Both the position numbers and the translations under genes were made by a program. From Mariniphaga sp. (GTDB lineage: Bacteria; Bacteroidota; Bacteroidia; Bacteroidales; Prolixibacteraceae), in NCBI GenBank assembly GCA_010906965.1, contig JAAFHB010000009.1:1-51380 (forward strand): a DNA stretch of 51,380 nt. The letters run 5' to 3'. Below the pieces are notes generated by a model. That model did no database searches and had not been told where the DNA came from. It saw nothing but the letters and a program-made list of their open reading frames with translations. Positions 27,531 to 44,721 of the stretch are shown in pieces (position 1 is the first letter of the stretch; the number at the start of each line of letters is the position of its first letter).

Positions 27531-27595
27531 TTGTATTCTTGCTGATTATATTCTGGTAAATATAAATATTAAATTCAAGCGGATTTGAAGATCAT

Positions 27596-27621: not shown

Positions 27622-27769
27622 CCTGATCAGACAGAGTCCAGATTATATTTAGGGTGTATCAGGAATACATTTAATATGGCAGAATCACTCCTTTGGACTG
27701 AGATAAGAAAAAACTAACAAAAACTCCCTTACTGAACGGTGTACAAATTTCACTGATTAATTTTTCATT

Positions 27770-28021: not shown

Positions 28022-28036
28022 ATTTCCTTCTAACTA

Positions 28037-28067
28037 AAAGGGGTGTAACCAGTAGTGACACCCCTTT
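28037..28067 (-). terminator. Terminator at the end of the replication operon
   Basis: AAAGGGGTGT (28037-28046) and ACACCCCTTT (28058-28067) form a perfect 10-bp stem with an 11-base loop, just beyond the 61-residue gene. On the minus strand it runs into TTAGTTAG. Confidence 0.75.
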
Positions 28068-28075
28068 AAATTTAA

Positions 28076-28261
28076 TCAATACATGCTCTTCAATGTTCCA
28101 ATCTCGTTAAGTGCAATATTGATTCCATCGCATAATTCCCGAACCTTTGGATAGTTTGTATTAAGGTGGTCGGCAATAATTGTTCTGATCTCGGTTTCCA
28201 TTACCTCAACTTCTGCCTCTAAAGTGCAAATTTTACCTTGAATTTTGTCTCTCATTTTCAT
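28076..28261 (-). CDS. Small coiled-coil-like protein
   Basis: A 61-residue protein (a second Met is two codons in) rich in heptad-like patterns (KICTLEAEVEVMETEIRTIIADHL). No family is recognised. It is last in the leftward replication operon, 53 bases after the DnaB helicase gene and just before a strong terminator. It could be a small helicase accessory factor, but only position supports this. Confidence 0.55.
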   Translation of the reverse strand: MKMRDKIQGKICTLEAEVEVMETEIRTIIADHLNTNYPKVRELCDGINIALNEIGTLKSMY

Positions 28262-28314
28262 CTTTAAATATTTATTAATTGATTGAATTGATTGGGAATA
28301 TTCCCGATTGATAT

Positions 28315-29688: not shown

Positions 29689-30383
29689 TCTTTTGGAGTT
29701 TTTGATTGTGGTTTTTGACTTTCTGGTGTTGTTTCAAATTCTTGTTCCCAACATTTCCGATCGATCCATGTTGAAAGGTTTTTCCAAGGTGGAACAAATT
29801 CTTTTAGTTCTGCCAATTTAGCCCGGTGGCTTTTTTCTCTTTCAAGAGCAGGAAGAAGCAAAAAGATAATTTCTGAATCATTTTTTTTTAGGAATGCTTC
29901 AAGTTCGGTTTTTAACCCTCTTTTTGTTCCAGGGAAAGACAGTCTGAAAGCATCAAAAACGACAGAAACATTATTCTTTTCCTTCTTAAGTTCTTGTTTA
30001 TCGCCCTTTGTTTGCCCTTCGTTTGCCCCTTCCTTGTCCTCACGTTGCCTTTTCGTTTGCCCTTCCTCGTTAGGCTTGGCCTGATAACTATCATACTTAT
30101 TGATTGTTAACCGTGTCGCATTGTTTGCCCTTGCGCTTGTCACTTCATTTGTCCTTTTTAGCTTATTGATTGAAATGCGAATCTGTTTAACAGATAGCTT
30201 TAGTTCTTCCGAAAGGTGAGCGATCGAGGTTATCATTTGACCTCTTTTTATTGGTTCCCCTCTCCAGATAGCATCTTTTGAATTGGCCTTTAATAGCAGG
30301 TGAATGAATAGTCTGAATGTATTTGAGTCGTCGTACCATTCCCATTCTGTAATTATCCGGTGTAATTTTATCCAACCTTCCAT
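29679..30383 (-). CDS. Phage-type replication initiator/replisome organiser
   Basis: A 234-residue protein. The N-terminal winged helix (MEGWIKLHRIITEWEWYDD, FRLFIHLLLKAN, WRGEPIKRGQMITS, LSEELKLSVKQIRISINKL) is typical of Bacteroidota phage replication proteins. A charged, low-complexity Glu/Lys/Gln linker (about 105-145) follows, then a helical C-terminal region that may bind the helicase. It overlaps the start of dnaB. It is the likely origin-binding protein for the GTTTCATA repeats at 27.8 kb (inference). Confidence 0.78.
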   Translation of the reverse strand: MEGWIKLHRIITEWEWYDDSNTFRLFIHLLLKANSKDAIWRGEPIKRGQMITSIAHLSEELKLSVKQIRISINKLKRTNEVTSARANNATRLTINKYDSYQAKPNEEGQTKRQREDKEGANEGQTKGDKQELKKEKNNVSVVFDAFRLSFPGTKRGLKTELEAFLKKNDSEIIFLLLPALEREKSHRAKLAELKEFVPPWKNLSTWIDRKCWEQEFETTPESQKPQSKTPKEWL

Positions 30384-30385
30384 AA

Positions 30386-30592
30386 TCAGGGAATATTAAG
30401 GTAACGTTGGGCCAAGTAAGGTCTCTTATCAATTAGAGATTTAACTTGAAGAGCTTCTGCCAGTGAATCGAAAAATCGGACGAAGCATCCAATAGGATTT
30501 GTCTCTGTTTTGCGGTTTGCTAACGAGGTTTCAACGAAGCAGTGTCCTGTATCCATATTATAGAACAGGGTAACGATTAATGTCTGTTCCAT
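30386..30592 (-). CDS. Small unknown protein in the replication operon
   Basis: A 68-residue protein without a known domain (TLIVTLFYNMDTGHCFVE, GCFVRFFDSLAEALQVKSLI). It is packed between neighbours with one- and two-base gaps, so it is expressed as part of the replication operon. No function is assigned. Confidence 0.55.
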   Translation of the reverse strand: MEQTLIVTLFYNMDTGHCFVETSLANRKTETNPIGCFVRFFDSLAEALQVKSLIDKRPYLAQRYLNIP

Positions 30593-30593
30593 A

Positions 30594-30881
30594 TTAAAAG
30601 AGGAGATTAAGTTGTACTGGTTTACCTGTTGGTGATAAATCGGGATTGGTCGTCAGATACCAGGCCTTGAAACCAGTTTTTTCGCATGGCATCTTTATAA
30701 TCTCCCAAAGCAGATCGTTCTTCTCCAGATCCCTTTTGTAACGGCAAATACATTTCTGTGGTACACCAGTTTCCGCTGTAACCATTGATGCAGTAGCAAT
30801 ATGATTTTGCAGATACTGAAATATGGTTTGCAGTTGGCTTTCGGATTCGGTATCTTTGGAGTGGGGATTGGCTTTTTTCAT
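30594..30881 (-). CDS. Small winged-helix-like protein
   Basis: A 95-residue protein. The middle looks like a winged helix (LQTIFQYLQNHIATASMVTAETGVPQKCICRYKRDLEKNDLL), ending GFKAWYLTTNP. Such proteins are common in Bacteroidota phages and integrative elements. The start codon shares one base with the stop of the excisionase-like gene (TAATG), so translation is coupled. A regulatory role is likely but not shown. Confidence 0.65.
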   Translation of the reverse strand: MKKANPHSKDTESESQLQTIFQYLQNHIATASMVTAETGVPQKCICRYKRDLEKNDLLWEIIKMPCEKTGFKAWYLTTNPDLSPTGKPVQLNLLF

Positions 30882-31222
30882 TATACTATTGCCCTCCTCT
30901 TTGGTGTCCGCAAATGACTTTCAGGGTTCTCCTGACTTTCGGCAATGGTTTTTCTCCGGCCCGACCTTATCCATGCAGTTAATTCAGATTTAAGGAAATA
31001 CAGCCGCTTTCCCTTTTTATTTACCGGAATTTCACCGCGAGATACAAGAGAGTAAATAGTGGGTACTGCTAAATTGACAAACTCAGCTCCCTGGGTAATG
31101 TTTAAGAGTGCTTCTGGTCCTGCCTGGGGTACCAGAAGTAAAAGCATTCGTTCAATTCGGTCAACTTTTTGGTCAAGTTCCGAAAAGACTCGCGGTAAAT
31201 TTTCAAATGTTGGTGTTTGCAT
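30881..31222 (-). CDS. Excisionase/MerR-like HTH protein
   Basis: I chose the ATG at 31222 (113 residues) over a TTG three codons earlier. After a coiled-coil-like N-terminus comes a HTH_17 domain: LLNITQGAEFVNLAVPTIYSLVSRGEIPVNKKGKRLYFLKSELTAWI, the classic Xis/AlpA-type DNA-binding fold. It probably acts as excision factor and/or activator of the leftward replication operon, in which it is first. The start codon lies inside one arm of a perfect 11-bp inverted repeat, and a 14-bp inverted repeat lies further upstream. Confidence 0.8.
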   Translation of the reverse strand: MQTPTFENLPRVFSELDQKVDRIERMLLLLVPQAGPEALLNITQGAEFVNLAVPTIYSLVSRGEIPVNKKGKRLYFLKSELTAWIRSGRRKTIAESQENPESHLRTPKRRAIV

Positions 31223-31251
31223 AACAATCAATTTTTTATTTGTTATGCAAA
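31216..31251. promoter_or_regulatory. 11-bp inverted repeat spanning the excisionase-like start codon
   Basis: TTTGCATAACA (31216-31226) and TGTTATGCAAA (31241-31251) are perfect mirror copies. The core TTTGCATA is the same as in the integrase arm repeats. It overlaps the ATG at 31222, so binding would silence the gene, or a hairpin would hide the start. Confidence 0.6.
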
Positions 31252-31260
31252 GTTTATTTA

Positions 31261-31295
31261 GTGTTTAGTACGTGATGAATACACGCACTAAACAC
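31261..31295. promoter_or_regulatory. 14-bp inverted repeat upstream of the excisionase-like gene
   Basis: GTGTTTAGTACGTG (31261-31274) and CACGCACTAAACAC (31282-31295) pair at 13 of 14 positions around a 7-base loop. It lies between the unknown integrase-neighbour gene and the excisionase-like gene. It lacks a T-run, so an operator is likelier than a terminator. Confidence 0.55.
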
Positions 31296-31298
31296 GTA

Positions 31299-32240
31299 TT
31301 ATTTCTTTATTGATTCCAATACTTTCTTATAATCTTTATCAAAATCCCCGTTTCTGTATTCTTTAAAATTATTGCTTATGGTTTTCTTTTCCGAATTGTT
31401 AAAACATTCAAAATAAGTGATAATGAAGTCTATAAAACAGTCCTTATGAGTGCTCCTTTTTGAGTAAAGCTCCTCATGTAATGTCCAGAATAACCGTCTG
31501 ATAAATTGTTGTGGGGCTGAACTTTGTATCTTTTTTACAATCGGTTCTACCCGATCTGAATCAATTAGACAGAAAATACCCCGGACAACTTTTTTATATT
31601 CGTCATCAGTCATTATCTTTTCATTGTTAATCCAGCATCCTGACAGTACAACTAATAAATTTTGCGCCTTATATTTAAGTTCTGTTTTATCTTTTAATTC
31701 TGGGATTGGTATTTCTGGCTCTTTCTCTATTTCATTGATATGAGTTTCTTTTACCCATTCCAGATATTTAAACGCGGCTTTTTTAATTTTTTCAATGTTT
31801 GGCCTTTCAGATTCAAGAAATTCACTATAGAATAGTTGCGGTTGACTTAATATCTGATTTTCATTTTTGAGATGCTCATTTGCTAATTCAATTTCTGATT
31901 TCCATTCATCTTCAAAATAAGTACTGTCTCTGTCACGAGCTATCAAAAACTTCTTGCAATGATTATAATACTTATTGAAAAACACTTTTGATCCTAAGCC
32001 TTTATTGAAGCCAATCCCTAAGATAGCCATACGAAATGAATCCATACCAGTATGAGCCAGAAACGCGGTAATGCCCCTTGCAACAATTGGTAATTGTGTA
32101 ATGCTGTGGTCGAATTTTTCTTTCTGTGGTAGATCATCATAGGCACGCCCAAGTTCTGCAATTCCTTTTTCGTTGTATTTATTAATGTTAATACTATCTT
32201 CATTCCATTTTCTTTTACTCTCTCTCATATCGTTTATCAT
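31299..32240 (-). CDS. Unknown protein next to the integrase
   Basis: A 313-residue, highly charged, mostly helical protein, starting with ATG (another Met four codons in). No membrane segment or signal is present and I recognise no domain. A hydrophobic patch (VARGITAFLAHTGMDSFRMAILGIGFN) and the Trp/Cys motif VVLSGCWINNEKIMTDDEY may be structural. It is 17 bases after the integrase gene and reads in the same direction, so it is probably cotranscribed with it. A role in integration control or as phage-interference cargo is possible (inference). Confidence 0.6.
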   Translation of the reverse strand: MINDMRESKRKWNEDSININKYNEKGIAELGRAYDDLPQKEKFDHSITQLPIVARGITAFLAHTGMDSFRMAILGIGFNKGLGSKVFFNKYYNHCKKFLIARDRDSTYFEDEWKSEIELANEHLKNENQILSQPQLFYSEFLESERPNIEKIKKAAFKYLEWVKETHINEIEKEPEIPIPELKDKTELKYKAQNLLVVLSGCWINNEKIMTDDEYKKVVRGIFCLIDSDRVEPIVKKIQSSAPQQFIRRLFWTLHEELYSKRSTHKDCFIDFIITYFECFNNSEKKTISNNFKEYRNGDFDKDYKKVLESIKK

Positions 32241-32257
32241 CAGGTGATTATTTAGTA

Positions 32258-33508
32258 TTAAAAGTTCATCAAATTGGCCGTTAATTCTCTCATCGCATCA
32301 GATTCAAACCCTGCAAAATACCCTTTCGTTGTTGCTAAGCTTTTATGATTTAATGCCTCTGATACCTGTTCTAAACTTGCACCAGAACGGATTGCCAAAG
32401 TTGCGAATGTATGGCGCGAATAGTAGGTCGATATTTCACCGGGCAAACCATTTTCTTCTGCAAGCTTTTTAATCGCTGTGTTGATAGCTCTTGTGAAATT
32501 CTGGCTTTCCTTGAATTGCTGCAATTCGTCCATCTCCGGTTTGTAAATATCAAAAATGTAGTTTTTGGGGTCCGTGTCAGGATTACCATATTTGGTAATG
32601 AACTCTTTTGCGTAGTCATTCAAATATACTACAACGTTGGTTTGTTTTGTCTTACTGGTTCGCTTCGTTTTTTCACGTACGTAATCAAGTGTATCTCCCT
32701 TTAAATCGCAATACTTTAAACGGGCCAAATCTTTTACATTCATACCTGCCGTATTAAAGAGGAAAAAGAAAAAATCCTTTGCCTTGGTCTGTTCGGGTGT
32801 CTTTGGTACGGCTTCAAATAGCTGCTTTAGTTGAATTCTGCTTAATGCTTTCTTAACTGCCTTAGATTCCGGGATTTCATACTTCCCCCGGCCAAATGGA
32901 TAAAGACTTTGTTTGATAACTCCTGTTGAGATTGCGGTATTAAAAATTGTCCTTAAGGTTCTCAAGTACATTCCTGTAGTTGTTTGGCTTTTACCATTAG
33001 TTGTCATGTAGTTTTCAAAATCATTTAGCCATTGAGTGTTGATCTCCAGAAAACGTAAAATTTCCGGTTCCTTGCTTGTCTTAAATTTGAGAAATTTCTT
33101 TATTGATTTCTGGCTAAGGTCATAATTTGACGCAGTTCCAATCTGTTTATTTTGTTTGTATTGTTTTATTGCTTCATGATATTGGAAAAATACATTTTCA
33201 GGCTCTCCTGCTTTTTGAAACAATATCCTTTCAAACTCTTCAAAAGTGAAAGTTTCAAGTTCCTTGGCTGTCTTTTCTGCTTTGTCCAGAACGGCTTTTA
33301 TTTCGGCTCTTGTCGCCTTAACTTCATTACGGGGTTTTTGAGTTTCCCAAATACTTTCAAATTCTTTCTCAGTAAATTGAAAATCAGTTTGATAAAGCTT
33401 TTGTTTTCGTGGGTAGGGTGTGAACACTCTCAACTTTACCGGGTACTTGTGGCTTTTTAGTTCTCTTCTAGCATCCAGAAAAACTGAAATCGAAAATTCT
33501 CTTTCCAT
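32258..33508 (-). CDS. Tyrosine recombinase (integrase) of the element
   Basis: A 416-residue protein with an arm-DNA-binding N-terminus, a SAM-like core-binding domain (about 105-200) and a catalytic domain. Visible active-site features are YSRHTF (Arg365, His366), NHKS (His388) and Tyr397 in TKGYF. The position normally held by the first catalytic Arg reads AGMNVKDL, with Asn. A lost first Arg is known in Bacteroidota integrases such as IntDOT. It sits 232 bases from attR, reads inward and is flanked by TTTGCATAC repeats. Confidence 0.93.
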   Translation of the reverse strand: MEREFSISVFLDARRELKSHKYPVKLRVFTPYPRKQKLYQTDFQFTEKEFESIWETQKPRNEVKATRAEIKAVLDKAEKTAKELETFTFEEFERILFQKAGEPENVFFQYHEAIKQYKQNKQIGTASNYDLSQKSIKKFLKFKTSKEPEILRFLEINTQWLNDFENYMTTNGKSQTTTGMYLRTLRTIFNTAISTGVIKQSLYPFGRGKYEIPESKAVKKALSRIQLKQLFEAVPKTPEQTKAKDFFFFLFNTAGMNVKDLARLKYCDLKGDTLDYVREKTKRTSKTKQTNVVVYLNDYAKEFITKYGNPDTDPKNYIFDIYKPEMDELQQFKESQNFTRAINTAIKKLAEENGLPGEISTYYSRHTFATLAIRSGASLEQVSEALNHKSLATTKGYFAGFESDAMRELTANLMNF

Positions 33509-33532
33509 GTCATTTGATATTAATTATCTATA

Positions 33533-33541
33533 TTTGCATAC
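33533..33541 (+). repeat. Arm-type repeat upstream of the integrase gene
   Basis: TTTGCATAC, identical to the repeats at 22061, 33611 and 33622, placed 25 bases before the integrase start codon, where integrase binding could also repress its own gene. Confidence 0.55.
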
Positions 33542-33610
33542 AAGGCCAAATTAATCTATCTTTGAATCACTCTAAATGCCTTATAAATAGTGCTTTTTAT
33601 TCAATAAATA

Positions 33611-33630
33611 TTTGCATACGATTTGCATAC
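33611..33630 (+). repeat. Arm-type repeat pair inside the right end
   Basis: TTTGCATAC (33611-33619) and TTTGCATAC (33622-33630) at 11-base spacing, the same arrangement as at the left end (22061/22072). About 110 bases inside attR. Confidence 0.6.
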
Positions 33631-33740
33631 AAACTTACACAAAAAGACGAACTAACAATAGACAACACGAAAAGAATTATTACATTTGTTTTATTTACAA
33701 AGGTTTCCGTGAATGACAAGTAACAGGAATAATCAAATAT

Positions 33741-33789
33741 TCTGCCTTACAAGCAGAGGGTAGATGGTTCGAACCCATCAGTTCCCACA
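33741..33789 (+). repeat. attR: 49-bp copy of the tRNA-Val 3' half
   Basis: Matches 21968-22016 at 48 of 49 positions. It starts at the anticodon stem and lacks the D arm and 5' acceptor strand, so it is not a second tRNA gene. It marks the right boundary of the element. Confidence 0.9.
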
Positions 33790-34156: not shown

Positions 34157-34984
34157 TTAGGTGATCGAAATAATTTGATCCTTAACATTATCGGGTTCAA
34201 ATACCTTCCGCCAGTCCTCACGAATAAATTCTTTCAAGCCGCGTTGCAATGCTTTGTTTGCTGCATCAGAGAAAACGGCTCCGGGAAGTTCATCGAACAG
34301 CACAGCCATCTGAATACGAAGATGCCCCAGCAAAAAATCACGAGCGGCCTCTGCTGGTACGCCCCTTTTAATCACCTCGTCGAGCCCCTGACGAATCACA
34401 TATACGCAGGTTGAAGCCAGCGTCTCGACCAGAGCCGGCTCGAGTAATCCCATCTGCTCAACAGTGATTTTGTGGGCCTGCAGAACAGGTCCGTAAAAGG
34501 TTCGCGCCAGTTCCTCACCTTTTGCATAATCGTCGTCATTACCTTTCATGATCGAACAAACAATTGACTGTTTGGCTGAAACTCCGCCAAAATGATCGTG
34601 CATATCGGCTTCAATAGGTTCCCAGTTAAAAATCGATGGATGAGTGGGATGCGTAATGAAATAAGCCACATCTTCACGATCGAAAAGCTTTCCGGCCAAT
34701 GCTGCAGCCGGATCAAGGGTAACGACCAACGCACCGCTTTTCATCATCGGAATAAATGTTGCAGACACTTTTTCGAGTGCAACATCGGGTACTGCAAGAA
34801 TAACCACGTCTGCAAACGGAACGGTTACGGAAGGCTGCGAAACAGTAATGCCTTTTTCTGTCAACCTTTCGATACCAGCAAGACTTACTTCGAGATAAGT
34901 CATCTCATATTGAGCATTTTTCAAATTATGGGTAAGGCGCATTCCCATTTTTCCACCTGCGCCGACTAATGTTACTTTTATCAT
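34157..34984 (-). CDS. D-apionate oxidoisomerase-like (ApnO-type) NAD(P) enzyme
   Basis: A 275-residue protein with an N-terminal Rossmann site (VTLVGAGGKMGMRL) and a C-terminal helical domain of the phosphogluconate-dehydrogenase-C type (YVIRQGLDEVIKRGVPAEAARDFLLGHLRIQMAVLF). Conserved HPTHPSIFN and DHFGGVSAKQSIVCS mark the subfamily. ApnO enzymes of this family turn D-apionate into 3-oxo-isoapionate. It is the last gene of a tight leftward run with an ApsD-like dehydrogenase, an OiaC-like TIM barrel and a GH140 apiosidase-like gene, which supports the call. By sequence alone a different hydroxy-acid oxidoisomerase is possible. Confidence 0.7.
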   Translation of the reverse strand: MIKVTLVGAGGKMGMRLTHNLKNAQYEMTYLEVSLAGIERLTEKGITVSQPSVTVPFADVVILAVPDVALEKVSATFIPMMKSGALVVTLDPAAALAGKLFDREDVAYFITHPTHPSIFNWEPIEADMHDHFGGVSAKQSIVCSIMKGNDDDYAKGEELARTFYGPVLQAHKITVEQMGLLEPALVETLASTCVYVIRQGLDEVIKRGVPAEAARDFLLGHLRIQMAVLFDELPGAVFSDAANKALQRGLKEFIREDWRKVFEPDNVKDQIISIT

Positions 34985-35005
34985 ATCGTAAGAATTATAA
35001 GTGTA

Positions 35006-36037
35006 TTAAAATTCAGACATCAAAATCCGTTGTCCTATTGCTGCCGATTTGTAGGCTGCCCAGACCAATCGTACTGTTTCAAAATTATCAACACCCGTGT
35101 TTTCAGCAATCGAATAGCCAAGAATATCCTGAAGAATATCGTTGTTACAGGCTACAATTGCCGGAGGTTCCGGATAAAGCCGGTCGGTCTGCCATGGATA
35201 TTTTTTCATTTCAACGATTTCATAATTAGTCCCTCCAGGAGTAGTAACTGCAATATGAAAATCGGCATCGAGCCGTATGCTTCCTTTACTTCCCTCAACG
35301 AGAAGTAAAGTTTGAGGAAAAACCTCTTTCTCGAGCGGAGAACTAAACGATATCTCCTGAATACAAACCACCCCGTTTTTCATCAGGAGCATACTTGTAG
35401 CAACATCTTCACCTTTGATTCCAGGGTTAACCTGCTGAATCTGGCAATAGATTGACTCCGCTTCACCAAACAGAAACCGAAGCACATCGAACTGATGCGA
35501 ACCCTGATCGGTTAATGCAAATTTTTCGAGTGTTGCCAAAAAAGGCTGAGTTTCGAAAAGCGGGAATGCTGTATTAAAAGCTGTAAGGCAGCGAAATGGC
35601 CGACCGATCAAACCAGAATCGAGCAACTCCTTTATCCTTCGAAATTGTGGTTGCCAGCGGTAATTTTCGTGAACAAAGTATTTAACATCTGCATCCCTGG
35701 TAACTTTCATCATCTTTTGGGCCGTTTCAAAATCGGGCGCCATTGGTTTTTGGCAGATCACATGTTTACCATATTTAGCTGCAAGCGCCACAAATTCGAA
35801 ATGCGTATCGACATCGGTGATGATATCGACAACATCAATCTCCGGGTGATTTTTCAACAATAGTTCAGCGTCATCGTAATAATGCTGAATATTAAATGCT
35901 TCTGCACGGTTTTTAGCTTTTGCCAGTGTGCGGTTATAAAGCGCGGTAATTTCAACACCAGGTAATTCGAGCCATCCTCCAATCTGGAACTGCGACCAGA
36001 AGCCGCATCCGAAAACAGCAACTTTTAAAGTCTTCAT
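35006..36037 (-). CDS. Gfo/Idh/MocA dehydrogenase, probable D-apiose dehydrogenase (ApsD-type)
   Basis: A 343-residue cytoplasmic oxidoreductase (no signal). The NAD(P) site is VAVFGCGFWSQFQIGGWLELPG, followed by DVVDIITDVDTHFEFV, the catalytic Lys-Pro in VICQKPMAPDFETA, and the C-terminal domain (VHENYRWQPQFRRI, TDQGSHQFDVLRFL). ApsD enzymes of this family oxidise D-apiose to D-apionolactone. It starts two bases before the OiaC-like gene's end and is 21 bases from the ApnO-like gene, so they are cotranscribed. The family call is firm; the substrate is inferred from neighbours. Confidence 0.75.
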   Translation of the reverse strand: MKTLKVAVFGCGFWSQFQIGGWLELPGVEITALYNRTLAKAKNRAEAFNIQHYYDDAELLLKNHPEIDVVDIITDVDTHFEFVALAAKYGKHVICQKPMAPDFETAQKMMKVTRDADVKYFVHENYRWQPQFRRIKELLDSGLIGRPFRCLTAFNTAFPLFETQPFLATLEKFALTDQGSHQFDVLRFLFGEAESIYCQIQQVNPGIKGEDVATSMLLMKNGVVCIQEISFSSPLEKEVFPQTLLLVEGSKGSIRLDADFHIAVTTPGGTNYEIVEMKKYPWQTDRLYPEPPAIVACNNDILQDILGYSIAENTGVDNFETVRLVWAAYKSAAIGQRILMSEF

Positions 36038-36039
36038 AA

Positions 36040-36849
36040 TTATTTAAAATATTGTTTTAGAAATTCAACGCTTCTGTCTGCCCACGTTGCCTCCTTGAAA
36101 ATTGTGGAAGCAAGATCAGCTTCAGGAGGCGTCCAGAGTTCCAGAATAGCACTCTGGCAGCGGCCCAGCCGATTTAGTTTACTGATAAGATCCTCAATAT
36201 TCAACATTCCTGAACCGGCAGGGTTCCCCTCAATTATAAACCCCATTTTATGTGAAACACGTTGGATTGTAAAGTCTTTAAGATGCAGGTTAATCGTGTA
36301 AGGAATCAGAATTTCGGCCACTGTTTCAAATCCCTCGCCTGCGCCCATCGAATTCGCAGAATCGAGACAAATGCCGACCCAATCACTATTAATTGATTTT
36401 ATAATCTGTTCAAATTCAAGTGCTTTCAGCCGATCGTGATTTTCGATGGCCAGCCGGATTTTTCGGGATTCGAATTCGGGAAGTAACTCACGAATAATCT
36501 GAATAATTAATGGAATATCAGGCTCAAATCCCGCACCATCGATCACCATTCGTAAAATGGGCGAATGCAATTTTTCGGCGGCTTTCAGACATTTCAGCGT
36601 ATGTTCCGTTGTCAGACATCGTCCTCCCATTTCGATGGAAATCCCTTTGTTGAACGCATATTGGCGAAGGTTTTCCAATTCAGCGTCCGTGAAATTTTCG
36701 AGCGGAAGGTTATCGGCAATCTGAACCAATTTCAAACCGAAAGATGCTGCCCGGTCAACCAGATCCGAAGCCGACATTTGTTTGTCTGGCAACGAACCTG
36801 GTACCCCAATTGACCATGTGTAAGTATATGAGCTAATTCCTAAGTGCAT
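36040..36849 (-). CDS. Xylose isomerase-like TIM barrel, possible 3-oxo-isoapionate decarboxylase (OiaC-type)
   Basis: A 269-residue protein of the AP-endonuclease-2/xylose-isomerase-like TIM barrel family. Metal-binding positions are visible: LAIENHDR (Glu, His), ICLDSANSMGAGEG (Asp), NLHLKDFTIQRVSHKMGF (His and His) and ILELWTPPE (Glu). OiaC, which decarboxylates 3-oxo-isoapionate to L-erythrulose, belongs to this kind of barrel, and the RVSHKMGF-x-x-EG-x-PAG segment resembles what I recall of it. Sugar epimerase or isomerase is the alternative. It lies between the GH140 and ApsD-like genes in the operon. Confidence 0.65.
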   Translation of the reverse strand: MHLGISSYTYTWSIGVPGSLPDKQMSASDLVDRAASFGLKLVQIADNLPLENFTDAELENLRQYAFNKGISIEMGGRCLTTEHTLKCLKAAEKLHSPILRMVIDGAGFEPDIPLIIQIIRELLPEFESRKIRLAIENHDRLKALEFEQIIKSINSDWVGICLDSANSMGAGEGFETVAEILIPYTINLHLKDFTIQRVSHKMGFIIEGNPAGSGMLNIEDLISKLNRLGRCQSAILELWTPPEADLASTIFKEATWADRSVEFLKQYFK

Positions 36850-36882
36850 TTTGGAGGCACATTTGTAACAGTTAAAAATAAT

Positions 36883-38310
36883 CTATAAACCTGGCGCTTT
36901 ATATTTCTTCGCGGCATCGTCGAGTACCAGAATCCAGTCTGAACTTTCTCCCGGTTCAGGAGAGATAAATTCTTTAGTTCCTGTGTTGGAAAATTTGCCA
37001 ATCAATTTCGCTGATCCATTTCGCGGATTATACCACCATGCATTCACATCTTTGCCTTTGATTACATCCAAATGAACGCTGAATTTGCGGCCAACTGGGA
37101 CATAAACCATTGCGTAAGTGCCATCGAGGTCGCGTGTGGCAACAAACTGATACGCTCCTGCTCCGGGCACCGACGTAGGAACATTGTCAGTTACGATAAT
37201 CGAATTATCAGGAATCCGGATCAGGTAAGGACGCGACTGCATCAGCTTTCTTCCGTATACCATTTGTGCAGCACCTGGCTGATCTATCGCTTCGTACCAG
37301 GGCATAAGCGGACGATTGACGGGTTTGCGTTCAGGTGCCCACATTTGCCAGACTGAATGATGTCCATAAGTATGACCGCATGCACCACTGAAAAGATTCC
37401 AGTAGAGTGGCCGGCGCACATCGGCAGCTACAGAATGCCCATTTTTATCGGGATCGAAATTAATGGGATGATCTTCATAAATGGGTTCTGAATCAATCAC
37501 AGGTTTAACAGGCGAAAGGTTGTAGTCGTCGGCTGTTTTGTGGTAACGTTCGGTATAGCTTAAGCTGTGGCCATTCTGTCGCATGTTAAAATCGAGCCAA
37601 TCTTCGTTATGAAAGCTTGATGATGAGCCATTCCCACCTGTTGGATGAAAAGAGATTAGATGGTTTGCGCCGTCTCCTTCGCGCAACCCCACTGCCATTT
37701 GGCGAATAATCTGCTTATGCAAATCCGTTTCAACCGGACGGTCACCACCCAGAATCCAGATAATATTTGGACTGTTTTTATAGCGGTTGCCTAAAAATAT
37801 TCCATATTCTTTTGCATTTTCGGGCGTAAAAATTTCGGGCCCCTGACCCCATTTTTTATTCCATTTATCGCCCCAGGTTGGCAGTAATCCAATGAAAATT
37901 CCTTTTTCTTCAGCTTTTTTGATCACCCAATCGACATGCGCAAAATACTTTTCATTGGGTTTAGTCGGATCATTATTGATCAGCGGCTTTTCTCCTTCGG
38001 CATTTGGGGAATTCAAACCGTCAAGTTCAGCAAGCGCAACAGCTTGAATAACAGTAAAGCCCTTTGCTCTACGATTCTCCAAATATTTTTCTGTTTCTAC
38101 TTTGTTCAACCGATGAAACAGCTCCCAGCCTGTATCACCCAGATAGAAAAACGGGGTTCCATCAGCAAAGACAAGAAACCGCTTGTTCTCTGATATCTGT
38201 AATTTGCCATGTTTAAAGTCGACGGACGGTCCTTTCCATCCATTTTCCTGCGCATTCGAACTAAAAACGAATGTCAGAAAAATCACTACAATTGATGCCA
38301 ATTTTTTCAT
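36883..38310 (-). CDS. GH140 apiosidase-like glycoside hydrolase
   Basis: A 475-residue exported protein (signal [15 protein letters not shown]). The DUF4038/GH140 barrel starts with [29 protein letters not shown], then [26 protein letters not shown] (Asp), [11 protein letters not shown] (a likely catalytic Glu) and [18 protein letters not shown]-terminal beta-domain (about 365-465) follows. The founding GH140 enzyme of B. thetaiotaomicron cuts apiose from rhamnogalacturonan II. Here the four genes around it look like a D-apiose pathway, so release of D-apiose in the periplasm or at the surface is likely. Confidence 0.82.
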
Positions 38311-38338
38311 ATAAATATCGATTGTGTTTATTACTTAT

Positions 38339-39340
38339 TTATGCAAACCTTGAATAGACAATAAACCCAAGTCCGATCAAATAACAGGCGAACATAAGGC
38401 TTAATAACATATTGGTTCCTTTGGGTGCTCCTCTAAACTCTTTCCAAACGAAAATACCCCAGATTGCAGCCACTACCGGAGCAGAGTTACTTAATCCATA
38501 GGAGATTGCCGGGCTGGCAGCACCAACAGCCATAAAGCTTACCGAATTACCGAGACACCAGATTGAACCTCCAAGTAAACCGAGCATATGCGTTTTTGAA
38601 CTTCCCTTAAAATAGCCCGACATTTTTACGGGTTCTCCCTGAACGGGTCGGGCCATAAATATTGGATTGAAAATCAATGTACAAACAAAAGCTCCTAACG
38701 AGAATAATACGACAGCGGTATAAGAACTGATTTTACCCGCTTCTGCAGGAGAAAAATCCTGCGCCAGCGATGATGCTACAAATCTGTAAAAGAATGCGAT
38801 ACAGGCACCGGCAGCTACAGAAAGAAGAATTCCTTTGAGTGTTGGTTTCTGTTGTTGAGTTGCCAATTTCTTATACGACTGCATACTAACCAGAATTGCG
38901 ACTACAATGAAAGCAGTACCACTAAACAGAAAAACCGGGTTTCCTTCAGGTTTACCAATGTAATTAATCAGGATTCCCATTGTCCAGCCGATGCCGCCTC
39001 CAATTGGAAAAGCAACAGACATTCCGGCAATTGAAATGGCAGCCACCAATAATAAAGTACCCATATTCCAGACGACACCACCTAAAGCAGCGGAAAGCAG
39101 ATTTTGTGTAGAAGCCTGTGCCAGATCGGGCAGAAAGCTTCTTCCTTCGTTACCATAACTACCAAACGTAAAGGCCATTAATAGAGCAAAAAACACAATT
39201 CCCAATGAGAAATCCCAGTAAAAATGTTCGAACCGCCACGATTTTCCAATCAGATTTTGGGTGTTCTGCCATGAACCCCAACAGATCATTGCTAAAGCAC
39301 AAAGGGAAACGGCCAACGCATAATTTTGTACGAGTACCAT
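38339..39340 (-). CDS. RhaT/GRP-type sugar transporter, probable D-apiose uptake
   Basis: A 333-residue membrane protein with about ten hydrophobic segments, of the DMT/GRP sugar porter group (ICWGSWQNTQNL, FPIGGGIGWTMGILINYIG, GLLGGSIWCLGNSVSFMAVG, APVVAAIWGIFVWKEF). Members such as RhaT import sugars with protons. It is the first gene of the leftward unit ending with the ApnO-like gene and has its own promoter with a palindromic operator. The sugar is inferred from neighbours. Confidence 0.8.
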   Translation of the reverse strand: MVLVQNYALAVSLCALAMICWGSWQNTQNLIGKSWRFEHFYWDFSLGIVFFALLMAFTFGSYGNEGRSFLPDLAQASTQNLLSAALGGVVWNMGTLLLVAAISIAGMSVAFPIGGGIGWTMGILINYIGKPEGNPVFLFSGTAFIVVAILVSMQSYKKLATQQQKPTLKGILLSVAAGACIAFFYRFVASSLAQDFSPAEAGKISSYTAVVLFSLGAFVCTLIFNPIFMARPVQGEPVKMSGYFKGSSKTHMLGLLGGSIWCLGNSVSFMAVGAASPAISYGLSNSAPVVAAIWGIFVWKEFRGAPKGTNMLLSLMFACYLIGLGFIVYSRFA

Positions 39341-39404
39341 AGTTATAGAATTTGTAAATGATTAATATTATCGACTTTAGTAGTTGTTTTGGTGTTATGT
39401 ACTG

Positions 39405-39435
39405 TTATGCCAAATATAGGAATAATTTGGAATAA
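39405..39435. promoter_or_regulatory. Palindromic operator over the apiose operon promoter
   Basis: TTATGCCAAAT (39405-39415) and ATTTGGAATAA (39425-39435) are inverted copies with one mismatch and a 9-base spacer. The site covers the -7 box of the transporter gene, as expected for repression by the GntR/LacI-type regulator encoded next to it. Confidence 0.55.
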
Positions 39436-39440
39436 CCAAC
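39411..39440 (-). promoter_or_regulatory. Promoter of the transporter-GH140-OiaC-ApsD-ApnO operon
   Basis: On the minus strand a GTTGG -33-like element (39436-39440) precedes TATATTTG (39411-39418), a perfect TAnnTTTG box. Predicted leader of about 65 bases before the transporter ATG. Confidence 0.6.
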
Positions 39441-39462
39441 CTTCATCAAAAAAAAATGTTTT

Positions 39463-40473
39463 TTACAACGATTTTCTTGTAATCAGCAAATGTGGATTTT
39501 TTACTTTACCGAAGATCTTGTTTTTGATCATATTGGCTGCGGTTTCTCCCATTTTGCGGAAGTCTGTTGAAATTACGGAGATACCGCCGGCAAGTATTTG
39601 TTTGAGTGGAGTTTCATCGTACGACAAAACTCCAATATCCTGGCCTAACTCCCAATTTTTTTCCTGCGCCAGTTTAAGAATATCGATCAGATCGTGCTCT
39701 GAAACAACAAACAGCACATCACCTTTTTCAGGATTTGCTTTTGAAATACTTTCATAAACTTTGTGCTTGATTCCCGATTCCCGACAGAACTTATAAAAGC
39801 CCTTTTCCATACCATCAGGAATAAACTGAAAATTGTGATTGGTTATAAACTTCAGGTTAATATATTTCTTCAATAATGGCTTTGCTTCCGTCAACGTTTC
39901 ATAAATATCTGTTTTAAAATCCTGATATATAGCGGCATATTCTTCGCTGAGCAACTCTATATCCTTATCAATGATCAATAACTTAGCGGCAGGAATCACT
40001 TTAACAATTTTTGAAACGTCTTCGTTAAAGTGCGGCATGATCACAAAATGCCCATATTTGTTGATATTGTTATTGATTAACTGTTCGAAGACTTTCAGAT
40101 TATAATAATGGAAGAAAATATCGATCTGATAGTTTGGACCAAGACTATTTACAAATGAGCGAAATAACTCCTCCTTATAACTGTTCATCACGTCAAAAAG
40201 GAGAAATATCTTCAATTTACTACGGATGGAAGTAGACGAGACATAAAATCCTTTTCCGTGTCTTGGGCTGATTATTCCCCTTGATTTCAATTCATTATAA
40301 GCAATAACCACTGTGTCGCGCGATACATCGTAATTGTCGCAAACGTCATTGATAGATGGCAATTTATCCTCTAACAAGAGTCGTTTGGCACGGATATGCC
40401 TGATAATTTCGTTGACCAGTTGTTCGTATTTTGGAATACTCGAATCGCTGTCTATTTTAATCTTAAGGGTCAT
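39463..40473 (-). CDS. GntR-family regulator with LacI-type sensor domain
   Basis: A 336-residue regulator. The N-terminal GntR winged helix (PKYEQLVNEIIRHIRAKRLLLEDKLPSINDVCDNYDVSRDTVVIAYNEL) is followed by a periplasmic-binding-protein-like sensor (KIFLLFDVMNSYKEELFRSFV, IGVLSYDETPLKQILAGGISVISTDFRKMGETAANMI). This GntR plus LacI-sensor form is typical of Bacteroidota sugar regulons. It lies between the ApnL-like gene (29 bases upstream) and the transporter, and should bind the palindrome at 39405-39435. The inducer is probably D-apiose or a pathway intermediate (inference). Confidence 0.88.
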   Translation of the reverse strand: MTLKIKIDSDSSIPKYEQLVNEIIRHIRAKRLLLEDKLPSINDVCDNYDVSRDTVVIAYNELKSRGIISPRHGKGFYVSSTSIRSKLKIFLLFDVMNSYKEELFRSFVNSLGPNYQIDIFFHYYNLKVFEQLINNNINKYGHFVIMPHFNEDVSKIVKVIPAAKLLIIDKDIELLSEEYAAIYQDFKTDIYETLTEAKPLLKKYINLKFITNHNFQFIPDGMEKGFYKFCRESGIKHKVYESISKANPEKGDVLFVVSEHDLIDILKLAQEKNWELGQDIGVLSYDETPLKQILAGGISVISTDFRKMGETAANMIKNKIFGKVKNPHLLITRKSL

Positions 40474-40502
40474 CAGGTCATATTAATTTGACTGCAAATA
40501 TC

Positions 40503-42458
40503 CTAAAGTTTAAGGAAACCATCGATAAAATTGATTGAAAAAGGGCTCAATGATAGATTATTTCTCAAATTATATCTTTTAACAGGCTCTTTATCCAGCC
40601 ATAAAGAACTACTTGCTGCTAAGGCGAATGAATCAGGATCAAGGCTCTTTATATTCCAGTCTTCCCGACAACCTAAAATTTCGACCATTTGAGGTAACGC
40701 AGTGAAATTTACGACCATAGCCCTGATATTCAACCCGTCACTTAGTACAAGACTATCAACAAATAAAGGTTGCGAACTTTGAGATTTCATTACCTGAAAA
40801 CCCTTATTTGCCAGTATAAACTTAAAAATATGAAAAACCGGGAAAATCATTCCTGCGACGGAACGAAACTCAACCGGCCAGCGTGAATCGGTTTCACCCT
40901 GAAAAAGTCCTCGTTCACCGACTGTTTCAAAATAAGTACAGCCGTTTAATCCCGATTCCAAAAGGTGTTTCAAACTTATTGCACTCCAGCCAGCTCCGAA
41001 AAGTGACATTAACCGTGCATCTACCTGTGGTGGAATCGTTTCGCCAATGAAAGTATGCTCAAAATTCTCCAGGTTGGCATTAAACCGGCGTTGCAAATTT
41101 ACAGGCGAGACCCAAACTTCTTTCCCGTGCGCAAACTGCATTGCACTTTCCACCGTGTATTCCTGGGCTTTTAAATTCTCGACAAGCGATTGATTATCTG
41201 TGGCGTGCTCCTGAGGATGGATCGAATAGGAAATGAAATCTGCTTTGTCCGATTCCGGCCTGTTCCGGTTTAATTGCGCGAAATTTGCATTCGTTCCGCA
41301 ACCAATTTTCACCCCCGCAATCCTCGATCTGAATAATGGTGCAATTGAATCGGTCAAAGAATCGGGTGTTGATTGAATTGTCTGATGAAACAGAATTACT
41401 CTCCCAATTTTAATATCAAAAGCCAAAACCCAATCAATAAACTGATGTGCTTGTTGGAGAGCATGTTCGTCAAGAAAAAGAGCAAACATTAAAGGATAAT
41501 TCAGCATAATCGCCCCCTCGATCGCTACCGCTGCTTTTACTTTCCAGTTATCCTCAAAAAGATAAAGATCGATCCGGTAATGATCAAAAGACAACGTTTT
41601 AATAATTGATACTTCATCGGAAGACATTTTTTGCGGACGAGTCGATTGGCCTATTCCAATCTGTGGTAAAGGTTTTAACTGATCCGGGAAAAGAACAATT
41701 TGGTTGGCCGATTTTGTTTCAGAACCTTTAAAATTTTCAACTGCAACCTTTAAAAAAATTTTCTGCCTGATCTTTTCCCCTTTTTGTACCGTCGAGGGAT
41801 ATGGCAGGTTCAGTGGTGTGCAATAGGTTTTGAAAGAGGCATCTGTCCAGTTGCGATGATCTTCCGTTTCGAAAATATCGCCATGGAATTCGACCGTACA
41901 CCTGCAATCTGAAACCTTCCATTCCATCGTTTTGATATCTTTGAAAGGCTGTGATGGACTGATATTTACCGGGAAGGTGGCGTTTTCCTTCACTTCATTA
42001 CTTTGTGTGATTATACATTTCTTACTTGTACACTCTTCAACGGGATGAAGCAGGCAAAATCCGATTCTGCATTTCTGAAATGTGGTTAAAGCTTCGCCCT
42101 CCATTTCAAAACTTAAGGAACTATCAGCATCACCTTTAATTGAATAGGTTGCAATAAAATCAATATCAGCCAATCGATAATGGCAATTGTATTTAATCTG
42201 AAATGAATTCTCCTGAATGTCAATTTCTTCATGCGTTATTTCTGGTTCAACCGTTAGCCAGGCTTTACCACGAACGGCAGAATAAATCATCCTTACAATC
42301 TCAAATTCGCCGGTTGAAATGGTGCGTAACGAACCATTTTCATAAATCATGGTCAGCTTGCCTGCGCGAAGGCTGAGCCGCTTTTGCAGTTTTGCCCAAC
42401 TGCCATAACAAATAGTTTCAACAGAAATACTTTTTGCAAATTCGAAAACAGGGTTCAT
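40503..42458 (-). CDS. D-apionolactonase-like protein (ApnL-type)
   Basis: A 651-residue cytoplasmic protein without signal. The N-terminal beta-rich half has the pattern I associate with ApnL: YENGSLRTISTGEFEIVRMIY, DIDFIATYSIKG, SFEMEGEALTTFQKCRIGFC, then LLHPVEECTSKKC and EDHRNWTDASFKTYCTPL. The second half resembles a TIM barrel and a small beta-domain. ApnL opens D-apionolactone to D-apionate. It is encoded next to the regulator of an operon that supplies the steps before and after, which supports the call. Databases often list such proteins as hypothetical. Homology search would settle it. Confidence 0.65.
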   Translation of the reverse strand: MNPVFEFAKSISVETICYGSWAKLQKRLSLRAGKLTMIYENGSLRTISTGEFEIVRMIYSAVRGKAWLTVEPEITHEEIDIQENSFQIKYNCHYRLADIDFIATYSIKGDADSSLSFEMEGEALTTFQKCRIGFCLLHPVEECTSKKCIITQSNEVKENATFPVNISPSQPFKDIKTMEWKVSDCRCTVEFHGDIFETEDHRNWTDASFKTYCTPLNLPYPSTVQKGEKIRQKIFLKVAVENFKGSETKSANQIVLFPDQLKPLPQIGIGQSTRPQKMSSDEVSIIKTLSFDHYRIDLYLFEDNWKVKAAVAIEGAIMLNYPLMFALFLDEHALQQAHQFIDWVLAFDIKIGRVILFHQTIQSTPDSLTDSIAPLFRSRIAGVKIGCGTNANFAQLNRNRPESDKADFISYSIHPQEHATDNQSLVENLKAQEYTVESAMQFAHGKEVWVSPVNLQRRFNANLENFEHTFIGETIPPQVDARLMSLFGAGWSAISLKHLLESGLNGCTYFETVGERGLFQGETDSRWPVEFRSVAGMIFPVFHIFKFILANKGFQVMKSQSSQPLFVDSLVLSDGLNIRAMVVNFTALPQMVEILGCREDWNIKSLDPDSFALAASSSLWLDKEPVKRYNLRNNLSLSPFSINFIDGFLKL

Positions 42459-42525: not shown

Positions 42526-44721
42526 TCAATCTATAATTTCAAATTTCATTTTTTGATTGTTCACGATCACAAAATAATCACCACTTTCCAGGAACCGTTT
42601 GCCATTCGAATCAACGTAACTTAAATCGCGGTTCGGATCGATTTCAAATTTGAAGATGGTTTTCGCACCCGGTGCCAGTTCTTTTTTATCGAAGTATTTC
42701 AGTTCTTTCATTGGTCGCGAAATAGAGCAGGCAGGATCAGATATGTACCAAAGAACAGTTTCTGTTCCGGCAACATTTCCTGTATTACTTACTTCTACCT
42801 CAACTGAAAGTTTATCTGTCTTTTTAATTTTGGTGGCAGAAAGTTTCGGGATTCCATAGTCAAAAGTGGTATAACTCAACCCATGACCGAACCAATACAG
42901 AGGTTGGGTTGATATGTCCTGATAATCACCTTGGTTGCCAGATGGGCGGGCGCTTTGACGCATGTTGTAGTAGGTAGGAATCTGTCCGGTTGTGAGTGGA
43001 AATGTGATTGACAGTTTGCCCGAAGGATTGATTCGACCTGAAAGTATTCCAGCCAGAGCAGATCCTCCGGCGATGCCTGGTTGCCAAATTTCGATGATGG
43101 CATCGGCGAGTGGTTCAAGTCGAACCAGTTCCAACGGTCTGCCATTCGAAAGAATCAGCACGATTGGTTTTCCTGTTTTCTTCAATTCCTGCACAAATTT
43201 CTCTTGTATGGCAGGCAAAGCGATCGTTGAACGTGAAGCATTTTCGCCGCTCCATCCCTTTTTTTCTCCCAGGCAAACCAAAATTACATCCGATTTTTTG
43301 GCGAGGGAAATGGCTTCGGAAAAACCCGATTCATCGTTGCCATCGAAGTCACAACCTTTCGCCACATCGATTTTTGCAGTAGTTCCAAATTCTTTGGTAA
43401 TCCCTTCGCTAAGCGATTCGACATCGTATTCTCTTCCATTGAACGACCAGGCTCCCAGTAAATTCGACTTATCTGCCGCCATGGGACCTATCAGTGCAAT
43501 CTGCCTGGCAGACGCGGTGAGGGGAAGTGTTTTGGACTCATTTTTAAGCAACACCATTGACTCGGCAGCCAGCTTTTGAGCGATTGTTTTGCTTTCGGAC
43601 TGAAGATAACGGGCAGATTCATCTACAACGGTTGTGTAAGGCTGGTCGAATAAACCCAAACGAAATTTGACGCGAAGAATACGGCTTACGGCATCATCAA
43701 TTTTTGACATCGGTATTTTCTTTTCTGCAATGAGCGCTTTGAAGTTCTCGAAATAAATATTGTCTTTCATGTCCATTTCCACCCCAGCCATAAACGCCTT
43801 GTATCCTGCTTCTTTCCGGTCAGCCGCTACTCCCTGATTAATTAACTGTGCAATAGCATCCCAGTCAGAAACAACAAACCCGTCGTGTTTCCAGCGTTTT
43901 TTCAGGATTTCAGTTAAAGTATAGGGATTGGCAGAACCGGGAACACCGCTGATGTCGTTAAATGAACTCATCACTGTCGCGGCTCCGGCTTTTACACATG
44001 CTTCATAAGGCGGCAAATAGGTTTCCCAAAGCGATTGCATGGAAACATCGGAATAGCGATAATCGCGACCGCCTTCGGATGCTCCGTAAGCGACAAAGTG
44101 TTTCAGGCAAGCAGCAATCGAATTGGGATCGGAGAGATTTTTCCCCTGATAGCCTTTTACCGTGGCAACGCCGAACATTGCATTCGTATATGGATCTTCG
44201 CCATAACCTTCAGCAACCCGGCCCCAGCGGGGATCGCGGGCAACATCAATCATCGGTGAAAAAGTCCAGTCCACGCCGGAAAGTTTGGCTTCTTTGGCAG
44301 CAATCGCCGCGGCTTGGGTTACCAAAGCTGGATCCCACGAACAGGCCTGCGCCAGTGAAATCGGATAAACGGTCCGGAAGCCATGAATTACATCGAAACC
44401 AAACAGAATCGGGATTCCAAGCCTTGATTCTTCCATGGCTTTTTTCTGAATTTCGTTGCGCCAGACCGGGTCGGCACTGAAATAGATCAGTGAGCCAATT
44501 CCGTCAGGAATCGATTTGGTTGCTTCGCCAATGTTGTTCACATTGGTGTTCAGCCCGGCCGTGTATTGGTTGAGCTGAAGGATTTTTTCGTCGAGGTTCA
44601 TCTTCGATACCAAATCTTTGATCCGCGATTCGATCGGTGCCTTTTTGTCTTTGTAAATCTGGGCTTTCAGCGAAAGCTGAAAGGCTAAAATGATTGATAA
44701 TAAAATTGAAATTCGTTTCAT
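42526..44721 (-). CDS. bglX: GH3 beta-glucosidase (BglX-type)
   Basis: A 731-residue exported protein (signal ILLSIILAFQLSLKAQ). The GH3 N-domain has LGIPILFGFDVIHGFRTVYPI and DPRWGRVAEGYGEDPY, with KHFVAYGASEGGRDYR, and the nucleophile Asp in GFVVSDWDAI. The GH3 C-domain has CLGEKKGWSGENASRS (acid/base region) and a fibronectin-III-like C-terminal domain (LSVEVEVSNTGNVAGTE). It removes terminal beta-linked glucose, xylose or galactose from oligosaccharides, probably in the periplasm. It follows the same strand as the apiose genes, 67 bases before the ApnL-like gene. Confidence 0.92.
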   Translation of the reverse strand: MKRISILLSIILAFQLSLKAQIYKDKKAPIESRIKDLVSKMNLDEKILQLNQYTAGLNTNVNNIGEATKSIPDGIGSLIYFSADPVWRNEIQKKAMEESRLGIPILFGFDVIHGFRTVYPISLAQACSWDPALVTQAAAIAAKEAKLSGVDWTFSPMIDVARDPRWGRVAEGYGEDPYTNAMFGVATVKGYQGKNLSDPNSIAACLKHFVAYGASEGGRDYRYSDVSMQSLWETYLPPYEACVKAGAATVMSSFNDISGVPGSANPYTLTEILKKRWKHDGFVVSDWDAIAQLINQGVAADRKEAGYKAFMAGVEMDMKDNIYFENFKALIAEKKIPMSKIDDAVSRILRVKFRLGLFDQPYTTVVDESARYLQSESKTIAQKLAAESMVLLKNESKTLPLTASARQIALIGPMAADKSNLLGAWSFNGREYDVESLSEGITKEFGTTAKIDVAKGCDFDGNDESGFSEAISLAKKSDVILVCLGEKKGWSGENASRSTIALPAIQEKFVQELKKTGKPIVLILSNGRPLELVRLEPLADAIIEIWQPGIAGGSALAGILSGRINPSGKLSITFPLTTGQIPTYYNMRQSARPSGNQGDYQDISTQPLYWFGHGLSYTTFDYGIPKLSATKIKKTDKLSVEVEVSNTGNVAGTETVLWYISDPACSISRPMKELKYFDKKELAPGAKTIFKFEIDPNRDLSYVDSNGKRFLESGDYFVIVNNQKMKFEIID

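Follow-up and report, generated by a model that had tools for sequence, protein, structure and literature searches.

The 51,380-nucleotide contig JAAFHB010000009.1 of Mariniphaga sp. (assembly GCA_010906965.1), referred to here as the window, carries a seven-gene locus that very probably frees D-apiose and breaks it down by an oxidative, non-phosphorylating route. The probability of this reading is put at roughly 0.85. It is well supported, chiefly by the conserved company that the predicted genes keep. The enzymes are of known kinds; what is new is their packaging with a glycosidase, an importer, and a predicted on/off switch of their own. Apiose is present in rhamnogalacturonan II (RG-II) and in many plant glycosides, as stated in the available part of one report (PMC11747546). 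For the Bacteroidota, the literature covered describes apiose release only (PMC7939467, available in part), and the locus is a compact, testable unit uniting release, import, and breakdown. No published account of an apiose release-and-catabolism cluster like this one was found in the open-licence literature, which was represented mostly by titles and the opening lines of abstracts.

The window is the whole of one contig in a 5.87-Mb genome of 509 contigs (completeness 99.57, contamination 7.93). The seven genes are intact from ATG to stop and all lie on the minus strand. A preliminary description of the window had grouped six neighbouring genes and a regulator as one apiose set, and this grouping holds. 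The open reading frames (ORFs) and their coordinates are exact, Pfam agrees for every gene except ApnL (recognized by NF049900 only), and the set of six pathway genes recurs in six other loci. In order of transcription, the genes are:

40503..42458, minus strand: ApnL-like D-apionate lactonase, 651 amino acids (NF049900; 28% identical to Rhizobium etli ApnL; family motif)
39463..40473, minus strand: GntR-type regulator with a LacI/periplasmic-binding-protein-like sensor domain (Pfam GntR and Peripla_BP_3)
38339..39340, minus strand: GRP-type sugar transporter (Pfam Ureide_permease/Sugar_transport; weak RhaT-type NCBIfam match)
36883..38310, minus strand: GH140 apiosidase-like glycosidase (Pfam Apiosidase; PDB 8t9w)
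36040..36849, minus strand: OiaC-like TIM barrel, predicted 3-oxo-isoapionate decarboxylase (Pfam AP_endonuc_2)
35006..36037, minus strand: ApsD-like D-apiose dehydrogenase of the Gfo/Idh/MocA type (Pfam GFO_IDH_MocA; PDB 5uhw)
34157..34984, minus strand: ApnO-like D-apionate oxidoisomerase (Pfam PGDH_C; PDB 5t57)

The gaps between these genes, in the same order, are 29, 122, 28, 33, 2, and 21 nucleotides. The ApnL and regulator genes precede the transporter gene upstream, and the predicted operator lies between regulator and transporter.

In the proposed pathway, the GH140 enzyme would be exported and would cut apiose off plant glycosides or oligosaccharides, and the GRP transporter would carry the sugar over the inner membrane. 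ApsD is predicted to oxidize D-apiose to D-apionolactone, ApnL to open the ring to give D-apionate, ApnO to convert D-apionate to 3-oxo-isoapionate by oxidation and rearrangement, and OiaC to yield L-erythrulose and CO2. The names and order of these reactions are those reportedly set out for the D-apiose and D-apionate pathways by Carter et al. in 2018. Most likely, the GntR-LacI-type protein acts as a repressor of the transporter-GH140-OiaC-ApsD-ApnO unit through a tandem CATAACA repeat near the transcription start, and would be released on binding apiose or a pathway intermediate. Gene content, conservation, co-distribution among genomes, and conservation of the repeat were computed. Every reaction, export, the inducer, binding of the repeat by the regulator, and repression over activation are inferred.

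All six pathway genes (transporter, GH140, OiaC, ApsD, ApnO, and ApnL) are found together in six other Bacteroidota loci (L025, L026, L029, L030, L053, and L061). L053 is the same contig as L008, and L061 the same as L023. L026 has the gene order of the window with the regulator in place, and L029 and L030 have that order without the regulator. In L025, L053, and L061 a regulator is present and the gene order is shuffled. The GH140 of L053 is distant (25% identical to that of the window), yet it matches Pfam Apiosidase at 262 bits. A further locus (L051, from the cultured species Telluribacter humicola) contains GH140, OiaC, ApsD, ApnO, and ApnL without the GRP transporter; ABC-type transporter genes are read from the sequence in its place. 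Loci L027, L028, L031, and L032 carry parts of the set, with L028 and L031 lacking ApsD or ApnO in the examined stretch.

Among 140 genomes of the family, ApnL is present in five. ApnO has strong matches in the same five plus one weak match (E 1.5e-4), and OiaC (1e-20) is present in the five and in one more. Apiosidase-family genes score above the cut-off in 93. In a sample of the phylum, ApnL is present in 3 of 395 genomes, the window's own included. Across the family, GH140 alone is common and the apiose pathway is rare. The recurrence of the six genes and the co-distribution of ApnL and ApnO are more than chance would give.

Three known systems share parts of this gene set. The D-apiose/D-apionate operon on plasmid p42f of Rhizobium etli CFN 42 groups OiaX and a four-carbon acid sugar kinase with an ApnO-like protein, an ABC transporter, an ApsD-like protein, ApnL, and DhaK/DhaL. 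Common to it and the window are the ApsD-like, ApnL, and ApnO-like genes, a transporter, and a regulator. It differs in its OiaX and sugar-acid kinase, its ABC transporter, its DhaK/DhaL with isomerase genes, and the lack of a GH140 match in the 25.8-kb stretch, whereas the window has OiaC, a GRP transporter, and GH140, with no Dak1 found in the genome. A plasmid operon of Erwinia sp. E602 encodes a DhaK-family kinase, a triose-phosphate-isomerase-like protein, an OiaC-like TIM barrel, an ApnO-like protein, and a sugar-binding regulator. As in the window, its OiaC-like (32% identical) and ApnO-like genes are adjacent. Its 18.8-kb stretch has no ApsD, ApnL, or GH140 match, and its kinase and isomerase are not in the cluster of the window. 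The third system is the D-apiose cluster of Rhodobacteraceae strain LCG007, for which growth on D-apiose is reported in the available part of PMC11747546. According to that text, it has the lactonase, apiose dehydrogenase, and apionate oxidoisomerase in common with the window and differs in using a 3-oxoisoapionate kinase and a 4-phosphate decarboxylase, not OiaC. Within the Bacteroidota, BT1012 of Bacteroides thetaiotaomicron is a beta-apiosidase among the RG-II-degrading enzymes, of apiosidase type like the GH140 of the window; apiose catabolic enzymes are not named alongside it in the available part of the source (PMC7939467).

ApnO matches PF16896 (PGDH_C) at 201.7 bits and PDB 5t57, which we take to be the published ApnO structure, at 268 bits. 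It is 47% identical over its full length to the R. etli protein and 41% to the Erwinia operon member, and all have the GAGGKMG and HPxHP motifs in common. The top PDB match of ApsD is 5uhw at 224 bits, with the runner-up at 86; the 5uhw series is presumably the published structure of ApsD, an apiose dehydrogenase. ApsD is 35% identical to the R. etli operon member and belongs to a large family; D-apiose is its predicted substrate.

OiaC was examined together with its known alternative, the OiaK/OiaX route. In this xylose-isomerase-like TIM barrel, the putative metal ligands E136, D163, H189, and E237 do not vary across 23 relatives, one of which is the ApnO-neighbouring protein of Erwinia. The AlphaFold2 (AF2) model has a mean predicted local distance difference test score (pLDDT) of 94.7 and an epimerase/isomerase-type TIM barrel. 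Its nearest folds are Art22 and D-tagatose 3-epimerase, with a template modelling (TM) score of about 0.75. The distribution of the alternatives was taken from 84 distinct ApnL loci, made up of the best 80 matches plus L010, L011, L024, and L025, with duplicates L008, L009, and L023 left out. ApnO is within reach in 26 of the 84. Twelve of these 26 have OiaC only, ten have OiaX and/or OiaK only, three have both, and one has neither (Fisher p 0.001, only a guide because related loci are not independent). The one locus with neither (L083) has an OiaK fragment at a contig edge that scores 70 bits, under the threshold. This split is what would be expected of two alternative routes for one intermediate. 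GH140 is present in 9 of 17 OiaC loci and in one locus with OiaX/OiaK. The putative OiaC assignment is favoured by the neighbouring ApnO as well as by this division between OiaC and OiaK/OiaX. The proposal made earlier, of an apiosidase, a transporter, and ApsD-ApnL-ApnO-OiaC leading toward L-erythrulose under a dedicated regulator, gains support from the likeness to R. etli, from recurrence and co-distribution, and from this split.

At E 0.001, Pfam finds nothing in the ApnL protein, and NCBIfam recognizes it by NF049900 (D-apionate lactonase) alone, at E 4e-75 and over profile positions 5-593 of 595. The family motif GDxFExEDxRNWxDxSxKT is kept, and R63, W67, R131, H138, E199, D200, R202-W204, D206, K210, H418, D480, and R482 are invariant in 48 sequences. 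Many of the invariant residues lie within 193-216 and in the barrel. The AF2 model built from the 48 sequences (pLDDT 92.7, predicted TM score 0.93) is mostly sheet to about residue 270, followed by a TIM-like barrel and C-terminal strands. Since its nearest solved folds are glycosidase-like (3clw with E 2e-14 and TM 0.54 by target, Xyn30D, XynC up to 0.63, and GH97), the lactonase seems to use a scaffold of that type. The idea that it has also retained the catalytic glutamate of such enzymes was rejected: the candidate, E511, positioned where a late barrel strand ends, is present in at least 90% of the 48 sequences but is Ala in R. etli and Q or R in L010 and L011. ApnL-like proteins are widespread, with at least 552 places confirmed by an alignment query, of which the best 80 were kept; a single-sequence query of the same contigs gave no relatives. 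In the ApnL tree, the window groups with L026-L033 (nine rows, support 100), and this group is separate from Prolixibacteraceae rows L053, L061, and L024.

Several points weigh against the D-apiose reading. The window ApnL is 28% identical to that of R. etli, scores 253.5 bits against NF049900, under the cut-off of 750, and has the lowest score of ten proteins tested. OiaC is closer to TIM barrels that neighbour transketolase, SDR, and TRAP genes in Alphaproteobacteria (36-37% identical) than to the Erwinia protein beside ApnO (31-32%). The OiaC-bearing rows do not form one group on the ApnL tree (11 changes). No measured activity for enzymes of this Bacteroidota group was found in the literature covered. 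Dak1 (PF02733), which covers DhaK-type kinases, was found in none of the seven ApnL-bearing genomes, the window's own included, while the control found it in 3 of 14. On the first point, the curated NF049900 model looks too narrow, because eight of nine other ApnL proteins also fall under its cut-off, at 289-338 bits, and six of the eight (L036 of the cultured Rhabdobacter roseus, L046, L057, L073, L087, and L100) come from loci with ApnO, OiaX, and OiaK. Only the R. etli protein passes (1049.7 bits). The locus reveals ApnL-like proteins far beyond what the curated NCBI model accepts.

The same enzyme types could act on another branched or furanose sugar, with ApnL and OiaC being paralogues of shifted specificity. 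We regard this as a long shot. It would suit the wide spread of ApnL-like proteins noted above and the 58 of 84 ApnL loci without ApnO in the examined stretch, which for some of them is a short contig; other sugars may fall within the range of this family too. It would also suit the closest plasmid homologues of OiaC, which adjoin transketolase and SDR genes, and genome G413, of the same family as the window, where a second ApnL stands among genes of another set. The window locus, however, holds an apiosidase-family enzyme, ApnO, and ApsD together, its ApnO keeps the 47% full-length identity to the rhizobial operon member, and six of the nine rows in the supported set to which its ApnL belongs have OiaC. 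The preliminary description had named, as evidence against its reading, best homologues of ApnL and ApnO in families whose proven substrates are others. ApnO has no such best homologue, and ApnL is cleared only in part, given the 58 loci. The second ApnL of G413 (L009, G413:C48, 1606-14000) has as neighbours an ApsD-like protein (43%), a 3-hydroxyisobutyrate-type dehydrogenase, a phosphotriesterase-family protein, an MFS transporter, a transketolase, and a GntR relative, and is perhaps a lactonase for another sugar.

The 122-nucleotide gap between the regulator and transporter genes contains two predicted elements, the second of which begins one nucleotide past the first:

39411..39418, minus strand: predicted -7 promoter box TATATTTG, fitting the consensus TAnnTTTG given in the available part of PMC7366714
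39393..39409, minus strand: predicted operator CATAACAGTACATAACA, a conserved 17-mer with the direct repeat CATAACA-GTA-CATAACA, at -69 to -53 from the transporter start

Five loci from five organisms (the window, L026, L027, L029, and L032) have exactly this 17-mer upstream of their transporter gene, and in all five the -7 box lies 1-3 nucleotides upstream of it. The flanking 30 nucleotides match between pairs at 13-24 positions on the left and 6-21 on the right. The longest word common to the five gaps is 17 nucleotides, versus 5-7 in 500 dinucleotide shuffles. A palindromic operator was sought first and none was common to the gaps; the common element is the direct repeat. This 17-bp repeat is a predicted operator, new here. 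At up to two mismatches, it has one copy in the 5.87-Mb genome (control 0). Should this site prove to be the operator, the apiose unit would make up the whole regulon at that stringency. The predicted one-site switch could act as an apiose sensor.

Wherever a close regulator is adjacent, in four loci (the window, L026, L027, and L032, the latter three regulators being 64-69% identical to that of the window), the site is present, and L028, L030, and L031 have neither an adjacent regulator nor the site. In L025, whose regulator is 48% identical, both half-sites are present and the spacer differs. This distribution favours the adjacent GntR protein acting at the site, and a repressor would fit the position just past the -7 box. 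A precedent is the GntR protein NanR of E. coli, which binds repeats downstream of the polymerase site according to the available part of PMC8012715. The conserved repeat might instead be an activator site, or the site of a regulator other than the adjacent GntR protein. Such a role is unlikely, although three observations fit it: L029 has the exact site and no GntR match in its 21.9-kb locus, the loci with regulators of 42-43% (L053 and L061) and 42% (L090) have no site at up to three mismatches, and L070 has a two-mismatch site beside ApnL in the other orientation with no regulator match.

The GH140 protein matches PF13204 (Apiosidase) at 411.9 bits over profile positions 1-318 of 320 (cut-off 26.5), and Pfam also names Collagen_bind_2 (87 bits). 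In PDB it is nearest to 8t9w, labelled 'Apiosidase' (482 bits), followed by the 3kzs/5msy chain (264 bits). We take 5msy to be BT1012, the RG-II enzyme of family GH140. D190 (in GGD) and E275 (in SEPIYED) have identical counterparts in the alignments with 8t9w and the 3kzs/5msy chain, and are presumably the catalytic pair known from BT1012 work. A signal-peptide-like stretch is visible by eye at the N-terminus. Export of the enzyme and apiose release are both predicted. The gene next to ApnL on its upstream side is a possible partner outside the conserved set:

42526..44721, minus strand: GH3, beta-glucosidase BglX-like (NF011678, 652.6 bits; PDB)

Its score is just under the NF011678 (BglX) cut-off of 666, and beta-glucosidases are among its top PDB matches. 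Other neighbours are an alpha-galactosidase-family protein (Pfam) and a beta-helix protein at 48351-50294. A single TonB-type barrel protein is encoded at 8955-11444, far from the cluster.

The earlier suggestion of a direct link to polysaccharide attack is not supported. No SusD or pectinase domain is named by Pfam in the 37 window ORFs of at least 150 amino acids, and GH140 is nearer to 8t9w than to the 5msy chain. Both observations would fit a locus for small apiosyl-glucosides from plants (apiin-like flavonoid, terpenoid, or phenolic glycosides) and not for RG-II, with GH140 taking the apiose and the BglX-like GH3 the glucose. We give this narrower substrate range about an even chance. On the side of RG-II, the beta-helix protein at 48351-50294 bears a weak resemblance (38.8 bits across 117 residues) to BT_1002, presumably a protein with an RG-II role, and the cluster in L026 is adjoined by a GH141-like beta-helix. 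Of the complete loci compared, L026 alone has a GH3 close to its cluster, and its sequence is distant (28%). With the beta-glucosidase-like GH3 as a neighbour in the window, apiosyl-glucosides are as good a fit as RG-II.

The apiose locus lies to the right of an integrated element:

21940..33789: integrated element, 11.8 kb, with a phage-type integrase at 32258-33508 and a DnaB-type helicase at 28315-29688

The element is flanked by tRNA-Val (21940-22015) and a 49-nucleotide copy of its end (33741-33789, 48 of 49 identical). In sister loci L106 and L109, which lack the element, tRNA-Val joins the sequence found to the right of the copy for about 19 and 41 nucleotides. ApnL has no match in 17 sister genomes (64-98% complete), and among 16 scored candidates per sister genome, positions 33790-51356 have only short matches, none longer than about 940 bp. 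The apiose locus thus sits next to an integration site, in a variable region, and gene transfer is the most likely explanation. Misbinning was also weighed, given a bin contamination of 7.93%, and is unlikely for the left part of the contig, as 11651-16934 matches all 17 sisters at least partly, with G402 at 83% over nearly the whole length. A chimeric assembly is possible, since the right part has no sister anchor. Unlike ApnL, the GH140 has its nearest relative, of the loci compared, in L023/L061 (83%), so the glycosidase may have been exchanged independently of ApnL.

L-erythrulose is the expected end product, and the preliminary description noted that its kinase is missing from the window. 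This holds and extends further, since no Dak1 domain was found anywhere in the genome bin. DhaK, DhaL, LerI-like, and DerI-like proteins have no match above threshold in the 84 ApnL loci, and a search for OiaX, made without a positive control, found it in none of the seven ApnL-bearing genomes. The fate of L-erythrulose in bacteria without a DhaK-type kinase becomes a testable question. In L023, a zinc alcohol dehydrogenase is encoded within the cluster; that it would suit erythrulose reduction is only a suggestion. Tentatively, and with more doubt than belief, the locus may be pictured as a horizontally moved, self-contained "apioside to L-erythrulose" unit. Its glycosidase, importer, and full non-phosphorylating pathway would be under a single-target switch, with the GntR-LacI regulator reading the tandem, non-palindromic CATAACA repeat, and L-erythrulose would be handled outside the DhaK-LerI-DerI steps, for example reduced or excreted as an outlet for the NADH of ApsD and ApnO.

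Some further observations concern related loci. An OiaC-like TIM barrel stands with a split transketolase, an SDR, and TRAP genes on alphaproteobacterial plasmids (L012, L014, L018, and L019 at about 6.2-9.8 kb; L013 at 9.0-11.6 kb), possibly an undescribed sugar pathway. L014 and L018 also have DhaL/DhaK genes beside the barrel, and L013 has only a DhaL-type neighbour. In G438:C71 (61372-63633), an apiosidase-family gene adjoins a second OiaC-like gene; the ApnL of G438 lies on a different contig. The GH140 of L026 (11867-13018) reads as two ORFs in a metagenome contig, through a sequencing error or a real break. A PQQ_2/BamB-like beta-propeller is encoded near ApnL in five loci (L023 2191-3477, L024 985-2259, L025 6887-8170, L026 17368-18648, and L033 12804-14081), the L026 member being assigned by similarity only; no relative was seen in window positions 33501-51380. 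Elsewhere in the window, positions 17068-20139 encode a 1023-amino-acid protein in which a GH3 glycosidase is joined to a beta-lactamase-family domain. It adjoins a NamZ muramidase-family gene (15663-16934).

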